Shown here: piece after piece, positions 6,640-41,321 of the stretch
Numbering within the stretch: position 1 is the stretch's first letter
How the letters are laid out: each line of letters starts with the position of its first letter
Assembly (NCBI RefSeq): GCF_000003605.2
Contig: NW_003148788.1
Span: forward strand, 10,907 to 52,227
DNA length: 41,321 bases
DNA from: Saccoglossus kowalevskii
Taxonomy: Eukaryota > Hemichordata > Enteropneusta > Harrimaniidae
Reading direction: 5' to 3'
Notes under the pieces: generated by a model
The model's database searches: none
Seen by the model: the letters and a program-made list of their open reading frames with translations, nothing else
What the model was told of the DNA's origin: nothing
Program-made: the position numbers and the translations under genes

Positions 6640-7363
6640 GCGGGTGTCAATATGACAATTAACACAAGGCAAACTTTACAAAGAAAAACGGGTTCTTTAT
6701 TTCACAGAACGGAAGAGGAGATGTTGCTCCTTCACTGGCTTGGTACAATCTGCCTTTTAGTTTACTCTAGCTGTATATTGTTTCAACATTCTGTTTACCT
6801 AGTTACATAACAAAGTGACTCACAAGTTTGTACTACACATGCTCTATCAAGGTTATTATTAAATTCACTAAGCTAAAATGATCTCGCATACACTCGTGAG
6901 TAAATTCACAGGTAATACAGGCTAATACTTGTGCCAAATTATAACAATATATTCAACGTAAGGCAATTTTGTTAATTATTTTTGTAAGTGCCCGGTTAGT
7001 ATCATTGTTATACCCGTCCTAAGGTACAAATGAAATATTTTAAAGACTCAAATCAGTGACAAATTCTAAAATGTAATTATTACTAAAGTGAATGATCTGT
7101 GCATGTAGGGTACGAGTCTGTTACTGGGTAATGTCAGGAAATTAGTTGAGTTATATACGCTGGTTGTTAGTTGGTTCATCTCGCTGTGTAGTTGTGGTTA
7201 TTTAATGATGAAACACTTTTGATGAAACATTTTTGAAATTAAGTGACTCGTGCCATGCGTCATTATACAACAATTGTCGCATAAACTGCCTCATTTTGGC
7301 AATTACTTGTAATGTCGACTCTAGGTGGCGCAGTTTGTACAAATGCATTTTCTTTTATCTGGT
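6640..7363. other. Intergenic, nothing recognised
   Basis: AT-rich sequence between the minisatellite and the first TTAA element. No ORF, RNA gene or repeat that I can support. Confidence 0.5.
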
Positions 7364-8699: not shown

Positions 8700-9384
8700 A
8701 GATGTCTAACTTAGACATTTTTAGACATTATTAGACGCCCAGACAGACCTGTCTAACTTAGACATTTTTCGACGATATTATCGTTAATATCGGAGAAAAA
8801 CGAACTGTCCCAATAGTTGCCCAGACAGACCTGTCTAACTTAGACATTTTCAGACATTGTTAGACAATATTATCGATAATGTCGGAGAAAAACGAGCTGT
8901 CCCAACAGTTGTCCAGACAAACCTGTCTAACTTAGACATTATTAGTTAGTTTCCCGGACAGACCTGTCTAACTTAGACATTATTAGTTAGTTGCCCAGAC
9001 AGACCTGTCTAACTTAGACATTGTTAGACGATATTATCGATAATATCGGGAAAAAACGAGCTGTCCCAATAGTTGCCCAGACAAACCTGTCTAACTTAGA
9101 CATTATTAGTTAGTTGCCCGGACAGACCTGTCTAACTTAGACATTTTTAGACATTGTTAGACGATATTATCGATAATATCGGGAAAAAACGAGCTGTACC
9201 AATAGTTGCCCAGGCAAACCTGTCTAACTTAGACATTATTAGTTAGTTGCCCGGACAGACCTGTCTAACTTAGACATTTTTAGACATTATTAGACGATTT
9301 TATCGATAATATCGGAGAAAAACGAACTGTCCTAATAGTTGCTCAGACAGATCTGTCTAACTTAGACATTTAGACATTATTAGA
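8700..9384. repeat. Palindrome-rich satellite with long and short units
   Basis: The core GACAGACCTGTCTAACTTAG recurs about ten times (for example near 8743, 8826, 8917, 8957, 8999, 9082, 9123, 9214, 9255 and 9343). Spacing alternates between about 41 bp and about 83-91 bp. Long units carry a perfect 18-bp palindrome, GATATTATCGATAATATC, followed by a segment like 'gggaaaaaacgagctgtccc'. Short units carry 'attagttagttgcc' instead. The interior of the core, AGACAG-AC-CTGTCT, is itself an inverted repeat. No ORF. Confidence 0.88.
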
Positions 9385-22600: not shown

Positions 22601-25600
22601 TTTATTGCGTTTAGAACCAGTTAAAGCATTGCGCAAGTTAAAATACGTCTTATTCGCAATAACGACATTTACCAGCCCTCCCATCCAACGCAGTGATCGC
22701 AACTGTCGGCGTCCAAGAGGTGTATTAACTGCTGCGCCGAACAGCAATGTAAGCATACCTATATCGGCGACGTCCGATCATTTCTTATATCACGACTGAC
22801 TAAACCCATTATCAAATAGATTATCATTTTTTTTTATCCGTCTCATTTATTTTTTTCAGTGTTGTTAATATCTCACGGTTGTCAAATAATATCGCTCCTC
22901 TGTATCTGCGTAGATTGTTTTATGACGCCCATATCGGTACCAGGCCGTAATTGCTCTCTGCCTGTCTCTTTACTCAATCTGTCTTATATATATATATATG
23001 GCTGGCAATTTTTCAATGTCATGCCGATGACAAAACAGATAACATCGCGTTATTAAATGCGGGTATTATTATAACCGTCGACCCCCGCTCCCCAAGTACT
23101 AACTGATTAATATCTCCGATTCCTTGCAGTCGAACTTTCCAGCGTGGCGGTTCTCCCAGAGCACCGAGGATACAAGTTGTACAGGGAATCACTGGAACAT
23201 AGTGACCAAGCAGATATGACTGATATAGGAGCGATCGGTGAGTAGTTAGTTAAATACGCTTCCGTCGTATCATACGAAACCGTGATATGAGTACACATTA
23301 TATGACCATCGTCTCCGTAGCTGTACCCCCCCAAAAAACAAACAAACTACAAACACTACAGTCGTGTGGTATTTACCCGCATGGGTTTCACAATTTACGC
23401 CACATTTCAGCAACTTTCATAAAAAAAAAACATGTGCTACTCCCCTCCCTTATATTTTACACCATGTTTCGTGTCAAAGTACTTTTAACATTTCCCTGGC
23501 CCCTTTCCATGTAAACGCGTTTTATTTCGCGCTGTTCTAAAACTGTTTACGTGTATTTCGTAGCGCGAACTGCTTATTTATCTATTTCTGTCAATTTATT
23601 GATTTGATTTATAGTCACCAAGAGCCATCGGTACCATCCTTCAATATTTGTTCGGCGTCTGTGTGTCTGTTTGTAACCCTCATAATATATGAACTCCTAA
23701 GTTGTTGGTACGCGCTGTGGAGAGGAGGGGTGGGGTCTCAAACTATTTCTATGTCAGGTCAAAGTCATAGAAATTAATTCTGTCCGTGTAATAACTGCCA
23801 ATTTTTACTGTGTGGTTAACCTAGATACCTTCAATACTATATAAGAACGCATATCAGTGTGAAACATATTGACTTTACGTAAAAATACTCACCAATTCAC
23901 GTACGCCCTTTTTATTGTCTACTTCAAGTTTTTTATTGCCACTATTCTATGCAGCGTATCCTTATTCCTGGTACTAAACTTTTAAGTTCAGTGCAAATAA
24001 ACTGTTACAAAGGGAACAAATATCCGTCAACGAAATGTTTGTTTAATATTACCTCATTGCCTCTGTAACGACGCAGTGTGACATCGCGCGTTTGGGCAAT
24101 CACGTGCCATCGAATGTCCACGCCAGAAGAACGCCCTCTTATTTAACAACACCGAGAATCCACCTCCCAGACTCTCACTATGGAGTTTCTTTTCGTAAAA
24201 CTGTCTGGGTTTTTTTTAATGATATATCTATCTGCGACGAAAAAGTAGAAAGTACTCTAACCTCACACAACTATAAAATATTCCCAAGTAGCGGCGTAGT
24301 TGGTGATTAACTTTCGCTTTATTGCATATGCCCAGGGCTATGTATTTGCATGGATTGAGTGACTAACAGCTTGGGAGATGGCACACTTTAAAAAAAGCCA
24401 GGTGTTCTTAATAGCTAAAAAAAAACAAAAAAACTTTTCATTTCTGTTTCGTTTTTTTTAGAAACGTGGAGCAGACAGAGTAAAAGAGGCTTCGTCCGAG
24501 CTGTCACTAACAGGTAAGTTTAGAGTTGTAATATTTCCACAATTTTACCGGGCGGAGACAGATACAATGGGATTCTTGAAGGTTAAGCATGTTACTTGTG
24601 GCGTACCTTATTAACCTACCGTACGTATAAGGTAGGCATGTGAACTGGTATTTCCACACGGTTGAACGGGTTATATTACTGTCTGTGTTTGACGGTCGTA
24701 ATGTGAATTGTGACGTTGTTTAATCGTCTTGGGGTCATCATACACTGTGGGGATAATATGTAAGAAACATTCTCACGGTAGATATATGGTTATACCTATG
24801 AATAATCATTCGTTCGTCAGTACGTAACATGAGAACATTGTGCTCCATACGAACCAAGCGGAACAGTGAAGTTGTCCAACCTTATCCAATTCGAACGACG
24901 TTCTAGCGAGTCTCTCATTGACGCATGCTCATATGCTATACAGTGACCGAGTTGCTATGAGCAACGACAGTGACGTCCCGGGGACTAGTTGTGGCAGCTG
25001 TTTTGTCTTGGTTTCTCGTATTTATAATTCGGACTTCAAGATTATTAGAATTTCTATCATCTACTATTTTCGCTATTGTCTCGGACGTTTGCCCACTGCT
25101 GCCACTTAATCTCGTCCACCACTTAGTCATATGGCGTATATTTTGTATTACGTCCATTTTCACTGCATGGTCGTAGGTTGAATTTCACAAAATCTAAAAA
25201 TATAATTACGTTTTGTCTATAGGTACAGAACTCCATACTCGGACATACAGAAAGGGATATTGGAAACCGCATACATACAGAACTGGGGCTTCATCACTAT
25301 CGAGAAAAAGCGTTATTTAGCAAGACAATTAGGACTTACTGAACGTCAGATTAAAGTCTGGTTCCAGAACCGGCGTGCCAGGGATAGGAGGGAGAACAAA
25401 CGAAAGGTACAAGAGAGAGGACTTCTCCGTAAGGGCAGCCCCGGTAGCCTTGGAGATAAACAGGCTGAAGGCGAAATGAACGGCGATAACGAAGACTGTT
25501 TTGAAGACCAGGAGATCGATATGGATGAGGGAGATTCTGACGAGGACGAGGAAATAAACGAAAGGTCAGACTCAACTCTTTCCACTGAAATGCCGCGCGA

Positions 25601-26891
25601 TTATACGTACTCGTCGCCGTACACGTATGATAAGCCGTCTCCCATTTCCGTAAATCGGTCACCATCTAACCAGATACCGTCTCCAAATCAAGTTTCGCCG
25701 AGGGAAAGCGCAACCCCGCCACCGCTGAGGCCCCTTATGATCGACATAACCCCATACGACATAGTGAATCGATCGTCGAAGAGTTCGCGAAAGGACTACG
25801 AACCGAGAAAACATCAAAACGAAGGTTTGGTGGAAACATTGATGCACCAACACGAGAAGTTGTTGCAGTCGACCCGTGACCCGAGGAACGTAAACAACCA
25901 ATCACAGTCTCCCAAGGATGCAGAAATTACAAACGACCAACAACCCAGAGATGCCAAATCAGCAAATCAACAATCAAAGTCCAGTAAACTTAAAGACAAA
26001 ACCGACCAATCACAAACACGTGATCTATCCTTGAAGATTAAAATTAAACAAGAGAAGTACAATGATGACGAGTACTTGAAGCAAGCGAAGGATGACTTTA
26101 TAAAGTTTTCCAATAATAGAGCATCGGAACAATTAGACAAATACCACGAAGAACTGATCAGACAGATGACTTTAAAACATTTTTATGAACACGTCAGTGC
26201 TTGGAACGCGGATTCACAGGGAATAAGAAACGATGTTCCTAGTTCTGTGCCGTGGCTCTTCAGCGCACAGAGAAACACTCCCGGCGCTCTTCGGAATGGT
26301 GGTTCACATAAAACTATCATGGACAACAGTCACCAGGTTGATGCCATAGCAAATTTACGTAGTATGCACCAGAATTTGTTCCCTGCCTACGGCATGCAGA
26401 CAGCGCCACCTCGTATGCACGCAACCGCCGTCAAAACAGCGCCAATTACGTTGATCACGAATAACGTCGCTTCTACTCCAAAGCAACATGTCCCTCCACA
26501 AGCAGCGCCACCACCGGTGACAGTTTTGCAACCATCGCATATACTCCGCCATTCGTTACAGCTTCCTACTCGAAGAGAACACGAATCCGTCGATCGAATC
26601 GAATCTGTGCAAGAGGACACCGGCCCATTAGATTTGTCAATGACTTCAAAGAAGCGCAAACTGTCAACAGGATACCCATCAGGGAAAATCCAGAGAAACT
26701 TTCGTTTCTCTAGGAAGCACAGTTTACCAAGTGACGAGGAGAAGCCACGGCGAGAAACAGAAGTTCTTCCAACTAACCTTGTTGTCAATCAAAACAGAAC
26801 TCAACAACCACTTTATAAACATAAAAACGTACCTTTCATATGGAGGGGGACGTGTGCTAAACCGAAAACAAGCGCTGTAAAAGCATCGTAA
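19605..26891 (+). CDS. Divergent homeobox transcription factor, 4 exons, Cdx-like homeodomain
   Basis: Exons are 19605 or 19677 to 19731, 23130-23237, 24462-24513 and 25223-26891 (stop TAA). Junction phases 1, 1 and 2 match, giving 627 residues from ATG 19677 or 651 from the in-frame ATG 19605; I cannot choose between them. The homeodomain is residues 70-130 (short form). R5, Y8, L16, Y20, W48, F49, Q50, N51 and R53 are all present, but with 61 residues because the loop after helix 1 is one longer. The stretch ITIEKKRYLARQLGLTERQ and NRRARDRRENKRK most resemble Cdx. An acidic block spans 159-183. A ProSerThr-rich and Gln-rich tail follows, with IKQE (346-349, a SUMO consensus), PLDLS (540-544) and a basic KKRK nuclear signal (548-551). 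It is presumably a sequence-specific nuclear regulator, possibly a repressor. Exons 1-3 rest on splice signals and phase only. No orthologue name is assigned. Confidence 0.85.
19732..25222 (+). other. Introns of the homeobox gene
   Basis: Intron 1 (19732-23129, 3.4 kb), intron 2 (23238-24461, 1.2 kb) and intron 3 (24514-25222, 0.7 kb) all start with GTAAG or GTGAG and end in pyrimidine-rich AG. Apart from a short (TA)n near 22986-23000, I see no transposon in them, unlike the DNA to their left. The absence of visible repeats could reflect regulatory constraint, which would need a comparison with related species. Confidence 0.6.
25223..25397 (+). other. Homeobox (helices 1-3) with one-residue loop insertion
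   Basis: The intron splits the codon of homeodomain position 3. Helix 1 runs from about SDIQKGILETAYIQN. The loop and start of helix 2 read WGFITIEKKRYLARQL, and the recognition helix is RQIKVWFQNRRARDRR. Between the position-20 aromatic (Tyr) and the 'ITI' of positions 26-28 there are six residues where ordinary homeodomains have five. TALE proteins have three extra residues here, so it is not TALE. Confidence 0.93.
26043..26054 (+). other. SUMOylation consensus IKQE
   Basis: Codons 346-349 (IKQE) fit the psi-K-x-E consensus and sit in a LysIle-rich strand, LSLKIKIKQEKY. Prediction only. Confidence 0.5.
26625..26639 (+). other. PLDLS motif (CtBP-binding type)
   Basis: Codons 540-544 of the homeobox protein (short form) spell PLDLS, the canonical PxDLS peptide bound by the CtBP co-repressor. 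It is flanked by GlyPro upstream context and a basic KKRK cluster four residues later, as in many CtBP partners. Confidence 0.7.
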
Positions 26892-34087: not shown

Positions 34088-36774
34088 CAGAATGGTGAAA
34101 TCGAAAGGTAAATCAGAAAGCAAACAAAGAGTTCTCTTCTGTAGAACATACACATTGTATCAAGATCCGTTTTTATTGTATTTCCCCGAACAACACAATA
34201 CTGGTACAATACATATAGTCGAAATGACACCGTGGTAAAAGAACAACTCGACAATCAGTGGCGATATCCGTACATGACATGCAGGTTACAATACGTTTCC
34301 ATAGGTTTTGATATACTAGTACATTCGACATCACCATTCCATCGCCATTCGAGGTTTCATCAAGTGTTAATCTAAAATAGAACTCGGATGTACCGTACAT
34401 GTGAATCAAATTACCCTAAATTAAATTTAAAAAATACAATACCTGGACGACTTTAGATATGTGCAAATACTTCCTTATAGCGAGAAGGGTTTGATGACGT
34501 TTTTGAATAAGCATTTTATGTCTGTTGTCTCATCCAGAACCGTAATTTAGCGTATATGATTCAAAAGACCAAGTAGAAGCACAGGTTCGAACAAATTGCA
34601 CAGTCATTATTTACATAATTACCACGCGACGACAAAAATGGCAAACCTTGTAATTGCGATTGCAAGAGCTCATTGAGGAATTTTCGGGTGAAATTTGCGC
34701 CATGCATTGCCCGTAATCAAGTCCATTGAAACGTGTCCCCGATAATCAAGACATATTCCACCGATTTCTATGCAGGTTTGTGTTTTTGTCCCCTAATTAT
34801 TGCATACTTGGCACTTTTAACAGACTATCATGCTTGTTATTATTGATGTTTAGTGGATTCAAAAATATTCCTGCAAGCAGAGACATGTGAATAATTCATA
34901 AAACAAAGTTCATGAGACAACAATCAGCGAAATACGTTGTAGAAGCGTCAGATCTTGAAATGTACTAACATACAACTGCATGACACACAGGCCAAAAGTA
35001 TAACACAAAATCGAAATCAACTAGATTGTTTTGATGGCATCCAAGTCTGCAGTCCAGGTTACCTTGTACTCTCTCTAATTGACAGTAAAAGTCTGCTATG
35101 GCTATACAATTCTGTAGTCCAGACAGGAATTTAGTCTAATATATGAGGCATGTAAAATGGCACTGACACGGTAGTATTGCAGTCATCAACCATACTGAAT
35201 CTACCCGATGGTAAATGCTTTATTCAGCAGTACAACTATTGGACAACGACGAGATAGGAAAGCTCAGTGGAGCCTGTCAAGATCTCCCTGTTGCTTGGTT
35301 TAACAGCAAGAAGTCGTCTCAGAGAATAACTTGTTTTCTTCTGGGATAAAAAAAAACTCGTCTTACTACCGTACTGCTGGTGGGGACATTCAATGAATGA
35401 AAACTAGTTGTTTTGCGTTTTCATATTTTCTTTTTAATTTTACAATATTTAAAACATGTACATGGTAAACAAAATCTCTTCATTAAACCTTTAACTACCC
35501 ATGTGAAAGAAAGTTTGCAGGTGTGAAAAATGTGTCAACAATATTTATTCTATTTAAACTTCAATAACATTTCACAGGGACACATATCTACAATATTTCA
35601 ATGCTACCCATGTGACCACAAGTTAGAACCAGCTGTCGGTTGCACGGTTATAAAATACACCATTCAAAAGTATATTGTGATTTTTACAGAATAGCGATAA
35701 ACCAACTTTACCAACGCATTGTAGGATACCAACATGTATTCATTCATGGAATTTTACGCAAAAAATAATAATTGGGAGTTGTATGTGCAGAGACCCCCCC
35801 CTCCTCCTCTAATGAAGAGATTACGTTTTTCATGCACTTGTCTTAATTATCCACGACATTACAAAACTCATCTGGTTATTCCTCATTGGTGTCCTTGCAC
35901 AATGACATTCACATCTGTGGTGTTTGTGCAATATTCATTTCACACAACAAGCGTGTGAGTGAGTGAGTGAGTGAGTGAGAATAAACAGATGATGTACAAT
36001 GTGTAATACTGTACATGATTCAATTTATTTAGATTTCTAAAATTAAAAATACAAAGCGTATTTTGGTCTCGGGGTAAGCAATGAGCAAAAATAGGATTAC
36101 AATCAGATAGCACACACATTAGGATGATAAAGATCTGTTCAATGTTTCGGCCTTATACCGATATCACAAGTCACGTTATAGACGTTCATAAATACTTGTA
36201 TGAAGTTCACAGGTGCTTGGATCAAGCATCCTCGTTAATCGCGAACTATGAATGTGACATTCCCAAAATAAACACCACATGTACTTTTGCACTGATGCAA
36301 ACTGCTTCCACAATTCTTTTATTGCGGGTGGTTGAGAAAGGGAGGAGGGGTAGGGGAGAAGTCAGAGACGTCAACAGTATTGTATTCAGAGTAAATGAGA
36401 CCCCTTGGCAATGACACAGATTTATGTAACATCAGATATATTGGTAATATACAATAAGAGATACAGCAGAAGTATTACATCTGTTCATAACGTGGTAGCA
36501 ATATATATATAATATACTACCAAAACTACACTTCATGATTGTGGGATTCATGATAACTTACGACAAAAAATAAAAAAAAAAGTAAAATCATGTTTTCTAA
36601 AGTTGAACTATTATCTGTCATATGATTAAAACCCCTTATTAGTTTGAAAACAAAATCACTTCTTATAATTGCATGAAGATTTCAATAATGTTGCAACCCA
36701 GTGCGACATTAGAATAGTGTCAAACAATTCTTATCTCTTGAGAATTTATGCAAATGAGTACACTGTTGTAGTTA
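34088..36774. other. Intergenic; (GTGA)n tract only
   Basis: Between the family 2 element and the 48-bp array I see a (GTGA)n microsatellite at 35955-35980 and AT-rich sequence. No supported gene on either strand. Confidence 0.5.
35955..35980. repeat. (GTGA)n microsatellite
   Basis: About six copies of the tetramer after 'gcgt'. Confidence 0.95.
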
Positions 36775-37062
36775 GTTATAGTGAAGTGTTCACTATAGTG
36801 AACCATACAATGCATTGGATTTGTTATAGTGAAGTGTTCACTATAATGAAACGTATAGGGCATCGGGTTTGTTATAGTGAAGTGTTCACTATAGTGAACC
36901 ATACAATGCATTGGATTTGTTATAGTGAAGTGTTCACTATAATGAAACGTATAGGGCATTGGGTTTGTTATAGTGAAGTGTTCACTGTAGTGAACCATAT
37001 AATGCATTGGGTTTGTTATAGTGAAGTGTTCACTATAATGAAACGTATAGGGCATTGGATTT
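36775..37062. repeat. Six 48-bp tandem units in A/B alternation
   Basis: Each unit starts with GTTATAGTGAAGTGTTCACT. Odd units continue with 'aRtgaaccata' and 'gcattgg'. Even units continue with 'ataatgaaacgtataggg'. The order A-B-A-B-A-B makes a 96-bp higher-order repeat. TATAGTGAA-GTG-TTCACTATA in each unit is an inverted repeat that could form a hairpin. As 48 is divisible by three, both strands are open (plus-strand peptide unit CYSEVFTIVNHTMHWI). I take this as a by-product. Confidence 0.92.
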
Positions 37063-37469
37063 GTTATGAGACATGCTATATATTAATTATATCAGGAAAT
37101 GTATCATAAAGGTGTTTATCATAATGAGGTTACAATGTATTTATTTTCGATAATAAGGACCAAAATAGCTTTAGTGTTATAATACTGCAAGACTGAACAA
37201 TAAATTTCTCTCAAAATGTTGTTGGATTTTAAAGTACATGTAATGCAGCCCCAAACCCCCCAAAAAATATACACCCCCTTAAATGACATGTAAATGTTCC
37301 TTTACTTAATAATAACAGGTCTAAACGAAAGAACGAGTGACATCAGTAATCCTGGCTACTACGGTATACACAAACTGTTTGCCAGTTGGAATAGCACTCA
37401 AAGTATAACACATATAGGAGACAGCAAGTAGAAAGTGATCAGGGAGAATATATTGTGATCAATCAAATT
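37063..37469 (-). other. VPS35 3' UTR / intergenic
   Basis: Minus-strand AATAAA at 37140-37145 (TTTATT on the plus strand), about 325 nt past the VPS35 stop, is the best polyadenylation candidate. If it is used, the 48-bp array (36775-37062) is just outside the transcript. Confidence 0.4.
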
Positions 37470-39617
37470 TTATAATACTAATCCGTCATATGCAGGACCG
37501 TCAGATTCAGGTGCTTCTTGTTTCATTCGAAGATGTTCTATTGTATTCTGGAAATGTTTGTTGATTTGTTCGGTTTCTTCGTTGCCTTCTAAATTGGGCA
37601 GATCTTCTCGGATTTTTTCTATGAGTTGATTGAGCACTTGTACTGTGACCTTGTGGGGAAAACAAAAATTGATATACATTTATCAAAGGCCCCACTGGTA
37701 AAGAAAAAAACTAGTCTTCAGCCACTACATTTTGTCATATTTGACGTTAAAATAAAGTAATTGAAATAGAGAATGTATTAACTACTACAAACAATATCAA
37801 TGTTGCGTTGAAATACTTAAATTAGAGCGCAAGGATTGCACCAACCAGCGCAAGGATCGCACCAACTCATAAAAAAGATTACTTACTGCGTCATTTCCTC
37901 TCTCGTAAAAGTAAATATATCTATTAAGAATTTCTACAAACAACTGTACTTGGACAGAGTTATCCATACACTGATTGGCAATACGTAGAGACTTCTTCAA
38001 ACACTCCATCACACGTTTACCGTCTTGAATCTGAAAAAAATGTAAATGATGCATTTAAAATATAAACAAGTATCATTCTTGGTGTCAAAATATTTGTTTT
38101 CCCTTTTACATCACCAGAGTTGGGGTGACACTTGAATACCATAACACAGTAATATCAACAGCACTGAATGAAAATTAAATTGCACTTTTCAACATACATG
38201 ATATCACCACCATACACTCAATGTTTCAACTACACTTCAAACAGATACAGTTTAAAGGCTGAAAGAAAACAATCTGTTTTCATCGAGTTCTTCACGCACA
38301 ATCCAACCTACCTCTTTGCCTTCACTTTCAACAGTTCTACCCGACCAGAATAAATGTGAGCACGTACTCACACCTCGACACTGGTCGGGTTTTTTAAGTA
38401 ATTTAGAAGCTGCTAAAGCACACTGTGTTCGGAGTGGTTCGTGATTTTCTTCACCAAAACAACTCATTCTTTCAAAGGTGGCGATAATAAGAGTGATCGC
38501 GGCAAGCTGTGCTCGCGAATCACTGATTTCATCTTCATAAAGTGAAAAAGCCTGTAAAAAAAAAAGAAACAATTTTATAATATGAAATTTCAGTTACAAC
38601 CTTTGGTAACTTTTCCATAGGCTACAAATACATGGCTAAGTGAGAGGATGTTCATACCATTTATTGTCACAATTCTAATTACCTGGCAATCATAACAAGA
38701 ATGTGACTGTCATGGTTGAAGATGGCGGACAGATCAAAAGAACTTAAACAGCGAGTGGAGAAAAATATTCAACTCACATCCACCATTAGAGGGCAGTGTA
38801 CTCGCCCCCAAGGTGTGCCAATTTCATCACAACCACCACTAGAGGGCGGTATACTCACCTGAGACATGAATTCATATGCCACTGTTTCATGATTATCAAA
38901 GCCAATTTCGCCAGCTGTTACGGCACCTTGAAGGAATAATCTGAGTGGTAGTTCTGATAATTCTGCTTTGATCAAAGCACCGATTGTTTGATGACAAAAT
39001 GTAAAGATTTTCTGGCATTTTTTCTCCCATTTATCATCCTGAAGACAAGGAAAGACAAAAATTAACCCAAATAGTTGATCCATGGTTCTGGTGTGAGGAA
39101 CACAGTTGAGCACACTAGTCATACTTTATTTTTACTACCCCACCATTCATTGCATATACCAAATTTGTCCGATAAACAACTCATTCAAAACATCAACCAT
39201 GAGTGATGTTTGGGCAGGAATAGCATTTTTGACCAAAAATGGCAAAAATATTCGCTATAAATCAGACAATTGAACATATCCACACAAAATGAACAAATCT
39301 GAGAGAGAACCACCCAAGGTACCTTCCTAGAAGGTTCCACAGCCATACAGTTTGTGGTTTTTAAGAAGAAGTCGAAAATGTAAAGTTGACGACGGTGATG
39401 ACGGACAATCAGTAATACTATAAGCTCCGCTCAACTTCGTCGACAGCGGAGCTAAAAAACAGCAATTCAGCGATATAGAATGACCAAGACTTACCTCTTC
39501 AGCAATATCCCTATACCGATAGGCCAACTGAAAAGCACTGAACACCAACGGTGGCAAAGTGTATTTTATTCGTTTATTGCCGCCATTACCAAAATGCTTC
39601 CTGGAGGTGGTTAAAAT
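37470..39617 (-). CDS. VPS35: VPS35, retromer scaffold subunit (C-terminal part, 5 exons)
   Basis: Exons in coding order are 39617-39495 (41 codons), 39038-38859 (60), 38551-38312 (80), 38030-37887 (48) and 37649-37470 (59 plus stop). All junctions are phase 0 with AG/GT borders. They give 288 residues equivalent to the end of the human protein (796 residues). VPS35 is an alpha-solenoid that holds the retromer together on endosomes. This C-terminal part binds VPS29. Blocks seen are [76 protein letters not shown] and [20 protein letters not shown]. The aspartate equivalent to human Asp620 (in YEDEISDS) is kept, at 38519-38521. The five exons are intact. The rest of the gene lies to the right of the window. 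Confidence 0.97.
38783..38849. promoter_or_regulatory. Duplicated CTCF-like motif in a VPS35 intron
   Basis: CCACTAGAGGGCGG at 38836-38849 fits the 14-base CTCF core CCASYAGRKGGCRS at every position. CCATTAGAGGGCAG at 38783-38796 fits with one mismatch. The two lie in a local direct duplication of about 28 bp ('accaYYagagggcRgt.tactc') next to the donor of exon 38859-39038. Motif match only. Confidence 0.4.
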
Positions 39618-41321
39618 CTGAACAGGAAATGAGAAATTATATATATCACAAAAAAGGAAACAAATCAAGTTTTTAAAAATCAATGAAGGATATGAGCTCT
39701 GTAGAACAAATGTACATTAATAATTTGCACATGAATTTTGTTGAGTCACTATAAATCATCTCAATATTGAGTATAAATGACCACGCAAAAATTCTCGATT
39801 TTCAAGACGTGAAGCGTTTAATCCCCCACAAATTATCAAAATTACAATTTCCACTCACGATTTGCCACATTTGGAGCACATAATAAAAATAAAACATTGT
39901 TTTACAAAAAGAGTTGTGTTGTCATTGATTTCCACAACACCTTTGCAATAAACATGGCACACTTTATTACTTATATCAGAGTCAGTGGGAAAAACAATCT
40001 GAGTAAACATCGTCAACATTATCATCATTCTTGAATGTTTTTCATTGAATTTTTAAATATGATTTTCTCCATGATAGGTCAAGTCTGTTATGTAAATACT
40101 GTAAAATACTTTATTTTAGGTGAAAATTAATTAATTTAGGTGTCAGGAAAGAGTGAAAGGTCTTTGGATACATTAACGCTTGATGTGATACGAGTTGACT
40201 TGAAGCTGTATTCTTAGAACTAATATGAAAGCCAATTATTAACCAATCAGAATGCTGGATGGTGTCAACATATTTGAATTACCCAATTTAAATATGTTAA
40301 TGAGGGTACAGCGACCTCATTAAATGAGAACTCATTGCAAGAGATTTACCAATGTTGTATTATGATCTTTTGGTGTTGATTTTGGTGTTAAAACAGCATG
40401 ACCATGACATACCAGTAACTTTGCAAGATAAACTGAAGCATTTTCAGGGTGATAACAGCTCATTGTCGAAAGTCAAAATAAACCCATGAATAGGCGTTAG
40501 TAACCACCGAAAACTTAAATTGTACTCTAATTTAGGTGCCAGGAAAGACTGAAATGTTTGAAAAATGACGCCCAGTATTAATCAATCACAATCCAATTGG
40601 AACTGATGCAATTTTTAGAGAATTCAGGAATATTGTTGATGGTAAACACACTACAGAGTTATATTATCAATGTTAAAAATACGATCTGTTGACATTAAAT
40701 TTCGAAATAATTTTTTTTTAAAACTAGTAATAGCTAATTGTTGAATAGTAGTTTGTCCATTCACGTACAGTGTTCTGGATAATCACAATAGATTCTGGAT
40801 TTCATTGTTCAGAAAAGTAAAACAATGAACAATGTCCAAGTTATTAGACTATACATAATTTGGGATGTTCAGAAGGAATAGGTACTAAATCAAACTTTTT
40901 TTCAAAATTTACATTAGCAACATTATTTTTCAACACAGAAGGCATGGTCTGAACATGGTGGCTAGAAAGCCAAATCAAAGAAAGCTTAGAAAGAACTCCC
41001 ATGTGCTGAGAGTATTGGAGACACATTAAATATAATTCGAAATTACTTAGCTGAAAACTAATTATGCAAATCAGAAAATTAATATGACCAGATTTGAGTG
41101 TAAAACTAATGAGGTCTGCGCAATGTAACAGAAAATCTATGTCTCCAAGTTTAATTGAAATGTGATTAGAACCAAAAAATTATGAATTATTATGCTTATT
41201 AGGGAATTAATATGAACAGATTTTTACCCAAAACTAATTAGGTTTGTACATTGTCCTAGAGCATCTTTATACTAAGTTTCATTGAAATGGAATAATTAGT
41301 ACCGTGAAAACTCCAAAATTT
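39618..41321 (-). other. VPS35: VPS35 intron continuing past the window edge
   Basis: No further VPS35 exon recognised in these 1.7 kb. An isolated copy of the 19-base terminus of the 99-811 element is at 40097-40115. Further right the sequence is AT-rich. Confidence 0.6.

Follow-up and report, generated by a model that had tools for sequence, protein, structure and literature searches.

A divergent Cdx/posterior-type homeobox gene whose homeodomain carries one extra loop residue

Here we describe a homeobox gene in a 41,321-nucleotide stretch of contig NW_003148788.1 (positions 10,907 to 52,227; C3913:10907-52227 in our numbering, and hereafter, at its full length, the window), taken from a genome of which 572 Mb in 4830 contigs were searched. 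The window holds a real, apparently intact, divergent gene of Cdx/posterior type, the homeodomain of which is 61 residues long. On balance, and with a good deal of reserve, we read it as a divergent homeobox gene of the ANTP class and of Cdx (caudal) type, distinct from the canonical Cdx of the same genome and most likely derived from Cdx, a family that patterns gut and tail. The gene would thus most likely be an extra Cdx-derived factor, and possibly the posterior Hox gene Hox11/13e.

Results

The homeodomain and its reading frame

The exons of the gene and the segments of its homeodomain are as follows.

23130..23237, + strand: probable upstream coding exon, read by eye (acceptor TTGCAG, donor GTGAGT; its frame runs on into the next exon)
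24462..24513, + strand: 52-base exon coding up to homeodomain T1-N2 plus two bases of R3 (polypyrimidine tract and AG, donor AACAG/GTAAGT, fitting frame)
25223..26891, + strand: last exon, with the remaining homeodomain, a 497-residue C-terminal tail and the stop (open frame; Pfam PF00046, expectation value (E) 1.4e-14)
25224..25397, + strand: homeodomain positions 4-60, 58 residues, one above the usual number (PF00046 match, alignment to the own-genome Cdx, phmmer against CDX2)
25278..25292, + strand: loop segment between helix 1 and helix 2 (alignment to Cdx; AlphaFold2 puts residues 20-25 between helices 7-19 and 26-36)

In standard numbering, with Y4 at 25224 and N60 ending at 25397, six residues (IQNWGF) lie between Y20 and I26-T27-I28, where 60-residue domains, Cdx included, have five. 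One insertion in the loop is required both by global alignment to the own-genome Cdx and by phmmer against human CDX2, which confirms the original prediction, made from the sequence alone, of a single extra residue between the aromatic at position 20 and the ITI at 26-28. The domain has the features of the ANTP class, with the PF00046 match (E 1.4e-14), three predicted helices, W48, F49, N51 and R53, and the core L16 and F/Y20 that mark the class. The residues with which Cdx reads DNA (R5, Q50, N51, A54 and R57) are known from homeodomain structures, and all five, together with Y4, are kept here as in Cdx. The further claim that all core and contact residues are in place therefore stands for the core and for these five contacts; it does not extend to position 25, which is Phe (as in HOXA13 and HOXB13) and usually Tyr, or to position 47, which is Val where Cdx has Ile. 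A TALE origin was ruled out by the one extra residue together with Q50, following the position-50 rule in the available text of PMC5322547.

The last exon lies between an acceptor at 25221-25222 and a stop codon at 26889-26891. At its base composition, 555 stop-free codons would arise by chance with a probability of about 1e-13, and its three-base periodicity is strong (3.8, against 2.8 for the best of 1000 base shuffles). The extra residue is not a frameshift error, because it is a three-base insertion within so long a frame; a sequencing slip as its source is ruled out by the insertion being in-frame and the 555 codons open, and the unbroken frame and open 1.6-kb exon proposed earlier proved correct, coordinates included. 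The open codons, the strong periodicity and the intact core residues also argue against a decaying duplicate in which the extra residue would be functionless drift, an explanation for which the long branch of the gene speaks and which we consider very improbable. Further upstream, the exon at 23130-23237 comprises 35 codons, preceded by two bases and followed by one, its phase matches that of the next exon, and it holds an in-frame ATG at 23216. A scored scan of 15.3-24.4 kb yielded no convincing candidate for a separate first exon, although the same scan missed the exon at 23130-23237 that was read by eye.

Relationship to Cdx and to posterior Hox genes

Sequence searches place the domain nearest to Cdx. 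A phmmer search of the PDB ranked four CDX2 chains first (E 3.9e-14 to 5.2e-14), with CDX1 sixth, and the canonical Cdx was the closest of the own-genome homeodomains that were aligned, at a score of 147 (next 123) and with 29 of 59 residues identical, so that about half of the domain differs. The first tree comprised 33 rows, namely 31 own-genome domains hand-picked as ANTP-type, the window domain and human CDX2; left out of the trees were PRD, POU, ZF and intron-truncated domains, including ANTP-type ones cut near residue 46. The own-genome family labels (Hox7/8, NotoLike, NK1 and others) are working labels, some possibly wrong, and domain L009 looks like Gbx. The window gene, the own-genome Cdx and human CDX2 grouped at 99/97 in this tree; support for the window gene with Cdx was 98/94 on columns 1-41 and 99/97 without human CDX2. 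The grouping reached 100/100 in a 30-row tree to which HOXA13, HOXB13, HOXC9, HOXA9, AbdB, caudal and PAL-1 had been added; the HOXA13 and AbdB domains entered there proved identical to PDB chains, and the sequences used for Drosophila caudal and C. elegans PAL-1 are unverified.

Structural comparison points the same way. The AlphaFold2 single-sequence model (predicted local distance difference test, pLDDT, 84.4; the other four models 84.2, 82.1, 81.9 and 65.1) has helices at residues 7-19, 26-36 and 40-68 and a longer loop at 20-25, and the homeodomain fold is predicted to be kept despite the extra residue. With this model as query, the best four Foldseek rows were CDX2 (template modelling score 0.83-0.84 to the query, root-mean-square deviation 1.8-1.9), followed by AbdB, with CDX1 at rank 8. 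VIA-align gave tied Z scores for CDX2, Ubx and other homeodomains, ties that are uninformative. Trees, sequence search and Foldseek thus support the initial description of the domain as Cdx-like.

Residue by residue, the window gene shares Y4, R5, D10, I26-T27-I28, K31, Q50, N51, A54 and R57 with Cdx/caudal, and NK(K/R)KV directly follows the domain both here and in the own-genome Cdx. It is unlike Cdx in its extra loop residue, F25 and P7, in having no recognised hexapeptide and a long tail with PLDLS, in the position of its intron (acceptor in homeodomain codon 3, phase 2, versus about five residues before the domain, phase 1, as deduced for the own-genome Cdx), and in that no ParaHox neighbour was seen in the readable parts of its contig. 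Vertebrate HOX13 resembles it at P7-Y8-(T/S)9, Y20, F25-I26-T27, acidic 29 and basic 30-32; the window gene has A54-R55-D56-R57, however, where HOX13 has V54-K55-E56-K57, and HOX13 scores 40 bits in phmmer against 56.

Several results weigh against a derivation from Cdx. Once helix 3 is removed, the lead of the own-genome Cdx is small (83 vs 77). Placement with posterior Hox costs 7.7 or 11 log units, with p values of 0.066 and 0.096 in the approximately unbiased (AU) test, and p is 0.119 with Hox11/13b-d alone and 0.079 with HOX13, so that the posterior placement is not rejected. Because the branch of the window gene is long, its grouping with Cdx is a preference rather than a proof; and because its domain is not 60 residues long and does not share the Cdx intron position, we do not file it as Cdx. 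It also fits the description of Hox11/13e, insofar as that gene is known to us from published wording only.

Thirteen sites are fixed in three Cdx sequences and absent from ten posterior Hox sequences, in a comparison that left out PAL-1; at these, the window gene has the Cdx residue at six, a posterior one at three and neither at four (one of them a gapped column). Such a mixture of Cdx and posterior residues would be expected if the gene belonged to an older ANTP family, distinct from Cdx and from posterior Hox alike, that was retained in this lineage and resembles both through shared Hox/ParaHox ancestry; its tail, which lacks a match in the genome, and its unshared intron position speak for the same explanation. 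Against it, the Cdx grouping was strong in all trees, and a tree that held the Hox/ParaHox rows together to the exclusion of the window gene was disfavoured (AU p 0.023, for groups named after the first tree had been seen). Taking both sides together, we think a separate family unlikely. A homeobox family specific to one lineage, as the original prediction suggested, is possible, with Hox11/13e as a known candidate for the gene.

A possible identity as Hox11/13e

A weightier alternative, which we rate as a real possibility although clearly behind a Cdx derivative, identifies the gene with Hox11/13e, a posterior Hox gene of echinoderms, or with some other dispersed derivative of posterior Hox; its likeness to Cdx would then be long-branch convergence. 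In the available sections of the account by Szabo and Ferrier (2018; PMC6307216), Hox11/13e occurs in all echinoderm classes and lies outside the Hox cluster. Its homeodomain is described there as very distinctive and as followed by a long charged region, and the gene as lacking both a hexapeptide and a conserved N-peptide. By that description, Hox11/13e and other 11/13 genes resemble the window gene in a divergent homeodomain, the lack of a recognised hexapeptide, a charged region and the lack of a Hox neighbour, none having been seen beside the window gene in the readable parts of its contig. The AU tests above do not reject a posterior placement (p 0.066-0.119).

The inventory of posterior genes bears on the same question. 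Hox9/10, 11/13a, b and c have own-genome candidates by position and sequence (working labels). A further gene, L036, is 63% identical to the Hox11/13 c-like gene and has a W-containing N-peptide, YRWLKP, upstream, and therefore fits Hox11/13d rather than e. When the c-like gene was used as query, all 115 of 115 candidates were scored and 40 matches obtained, and no other posterior-like domain that ranked higher than the window gene (42%) could be called e; Hox11/13e is therefore unaccounted for in the readable stretches of the genome, although it may sit in stretches outside those read. The divergent posterior gene L036 / L098 (C4628:123125-123313), probably Hox11/13d, has no other homeobox match on its contig.

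Other evidence speaks against Hox11/13e. The available sections of PMC6307216 mention no inserted residue in this gene, and the word 'insertion' is absent from what is available of the main text; nor do those sections describe a tail of about 500 residues. Published trees place Hox11/13e among Posterior Hox (PMC6307216, available sections), whereas every tree here places the window gene with Cdx, and a lone W 13 residues before the window homeodomain departs from the published description. Copine, a conserved neighbour of Hox11/13e, gave seven matches, on C1553, C2729 and C886 and none on C3913, which is weak evidence given the large distances published and a contig read in part.

Rarity of one-residue loop insertions

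In a homeobox profile alignment built for this analysis, 90 of the 97 domain matches span the loop, and five of these 90 differ in loop length: L060 is a misread intron, L083 has a TALE-like insertion of three residues, and the window gene, L078 and L079 each have an insertion of one residue. L079 is a CERS-like homeodomain of the same genome. L078 (C4668:105446-105986, - strand) is a PRD-like homeodomain exon with loop HFHNVSKYPDV and Paired as its best PDB match. Insertions into the homeodomain have arisen many times, and C. elegans unc-39 has one extra residue in loop 1, according to the available text of Burglin and Affolter (2015; PMC4901127). The original prediction had held that known loop insertions are either of three residues or much longer; unc-39, as there described, and L078 and L079 contradict it, each with one. 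UNC-39, L078 and L079 are like the window gene in that the stretch between helices 1 and 2 is longer by one residue, and unlike it in belonging to the SIX, PRD-like and CERS-like classes, respectively; since these classes differ, the insertion arose independently. From the unc-39 precedent together with L078 and L079 it follows that the insertion by itself defines no new homeodomain class. A one-residue loop insertion is uncommon, yet it is no mark of a new class. HOPX has a similar loop and is not counted among these cases.

Upstream and C-terminal motifs

A hexapeptide pattern scan of the three forward frames up to 26000 returned a match at 7146, surrounded by stops, and a second within the homeodomain itself. 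The lone W upstream (ETWSRQSK, 13 residues before homeodomain position 1 in the partial gene model) gave no YPWM-type match and is possibly a hexapeptide vestige. After the homeodomain come DRRENKRKVQERGLLRKG and then an acidic stretch, a charged region as in the published description of Hox11/13e. Three short motifs stand out in the tail.

25539..25553, + strand: acidic run DEDEE in the acidic stretch after the homeodomain (translation)
26043..26054, + strand: IKQE, putative sumoylation-type motif, psi-K-x-E (pattern match)
26625..26639, + strand: PLDLS, putative CtBP-binding-type motif (pattern match)

Sites of the form psi-K-x-E are sumoylation motifs, and PLDLS is of the CtBP-binding type; KKRK follows PLDLS at 26649-26660. 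A search for a second copy found no genome match for the tail, and none for the exon at the DNA level, where very common words are skipped.

Genomic setting

In the homeobox survey of the genome, 150 of 209 candidates were scored, giving at least 95 matches, of which 88 lay in stretches examined, one was the window gene and six were not examined. Among these best 150 of the 209 candidates, and within the readable parts, there was no other homeobox match on the 95-kb contig of the window gene. Exons of VPS35 occupy window positions 38252-39716 (- strand), where Pfam named three of the eight window frames, all as VPS35 and the third below cut-off; an ORC6-like exon lies on the same contig (L103:4003-4230), being the one frame named by Pfam among eight read further along it. 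VPS35 and ORC6 adjoin each other in human as well, and their presence on one contig looks like old microsynteny.

The canonical Cdx lies elsewhere (L022 / C4312:44139-44306, - strand); its homeodomain is unbroken, and an exon upstream encodes a PYAWMR hexapeptide. This Cdx homeodomain has no intron, and the sea star PmCdx homeobox is split by one (PMC3710244, available text). A Gsx-like gene was seen on C628, with Cdx on C4312, and no Xlox stood out by eye among the homeobox matches examined. By working label, Hox1- and Hox2/3-like genes share one contig, two 11/13b/c-like genes share another, and a third carries an 11/13a, 9/10, 7/8 and 5-like series with one more anterior-type gene. To judge by these labels, the set would be ambulacrarian and most likely that of an echinoderm. 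Elsewhere, L069 (C2714:1-8200) holds PRD-like homeobox genes that are almost identical and arranged in tandem, some of them oppositely oriented. The window also contains tandem repeat arrays at 36771-37067 and 8760-9370 (48/96-base units; 41/92/133/164-base units).

Discussion

If the gene is a Cdx derivative, as we favour, it would have arisen when Cdx was duplicated, and would then have diverged fast and lost its linkage to the ParaHox genes. Its protein may work like a Cdx factor, binding AT-rich sites of Cdx/posterior type; the N-terminal arm would lie in the minor groove and helix 3 would occupy the major one. A backbone contact or a partner surface may be altered by Phe25 and the six-residue loop while the fold is spared. 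It is possible that the tail recruits CtBP-type corepressors via PLDLS, in which case the protein would mainly repress; sumoylation at IKQE is possible as well. Judged from these motifs, the window protein is probably a repressive transcription factor.

A bolder version of a Cdx origin can be put forward tentatively, namely that this is an undescribed, echinoderm-restricted fourth ParaHox-type gene: a detached Cdx duplicate that lacks a hexapeptide, has a stably extended loop and Phe25 and recruits CtBP through its tail, and which may serve as a dedicated repressor at Cdx-type sites in a body plan that has lost ordinary axial patterning. The available portions of the literature surveyed contain no extra Cdx in echinoderms.

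Should the gene be a Cdx duplicate, it would make it possible to test how a conserved axial gene becomes free and is remodelled in five-fold symmetric animals. Should it be Hox11/13e, this would suggest that an extended homeodomain with recognition residues like those of Cdx can occur in an echinoderm Hox gene that has hardly been studied. On either reading, the loop insertion offers a testable effect on DNA binding.
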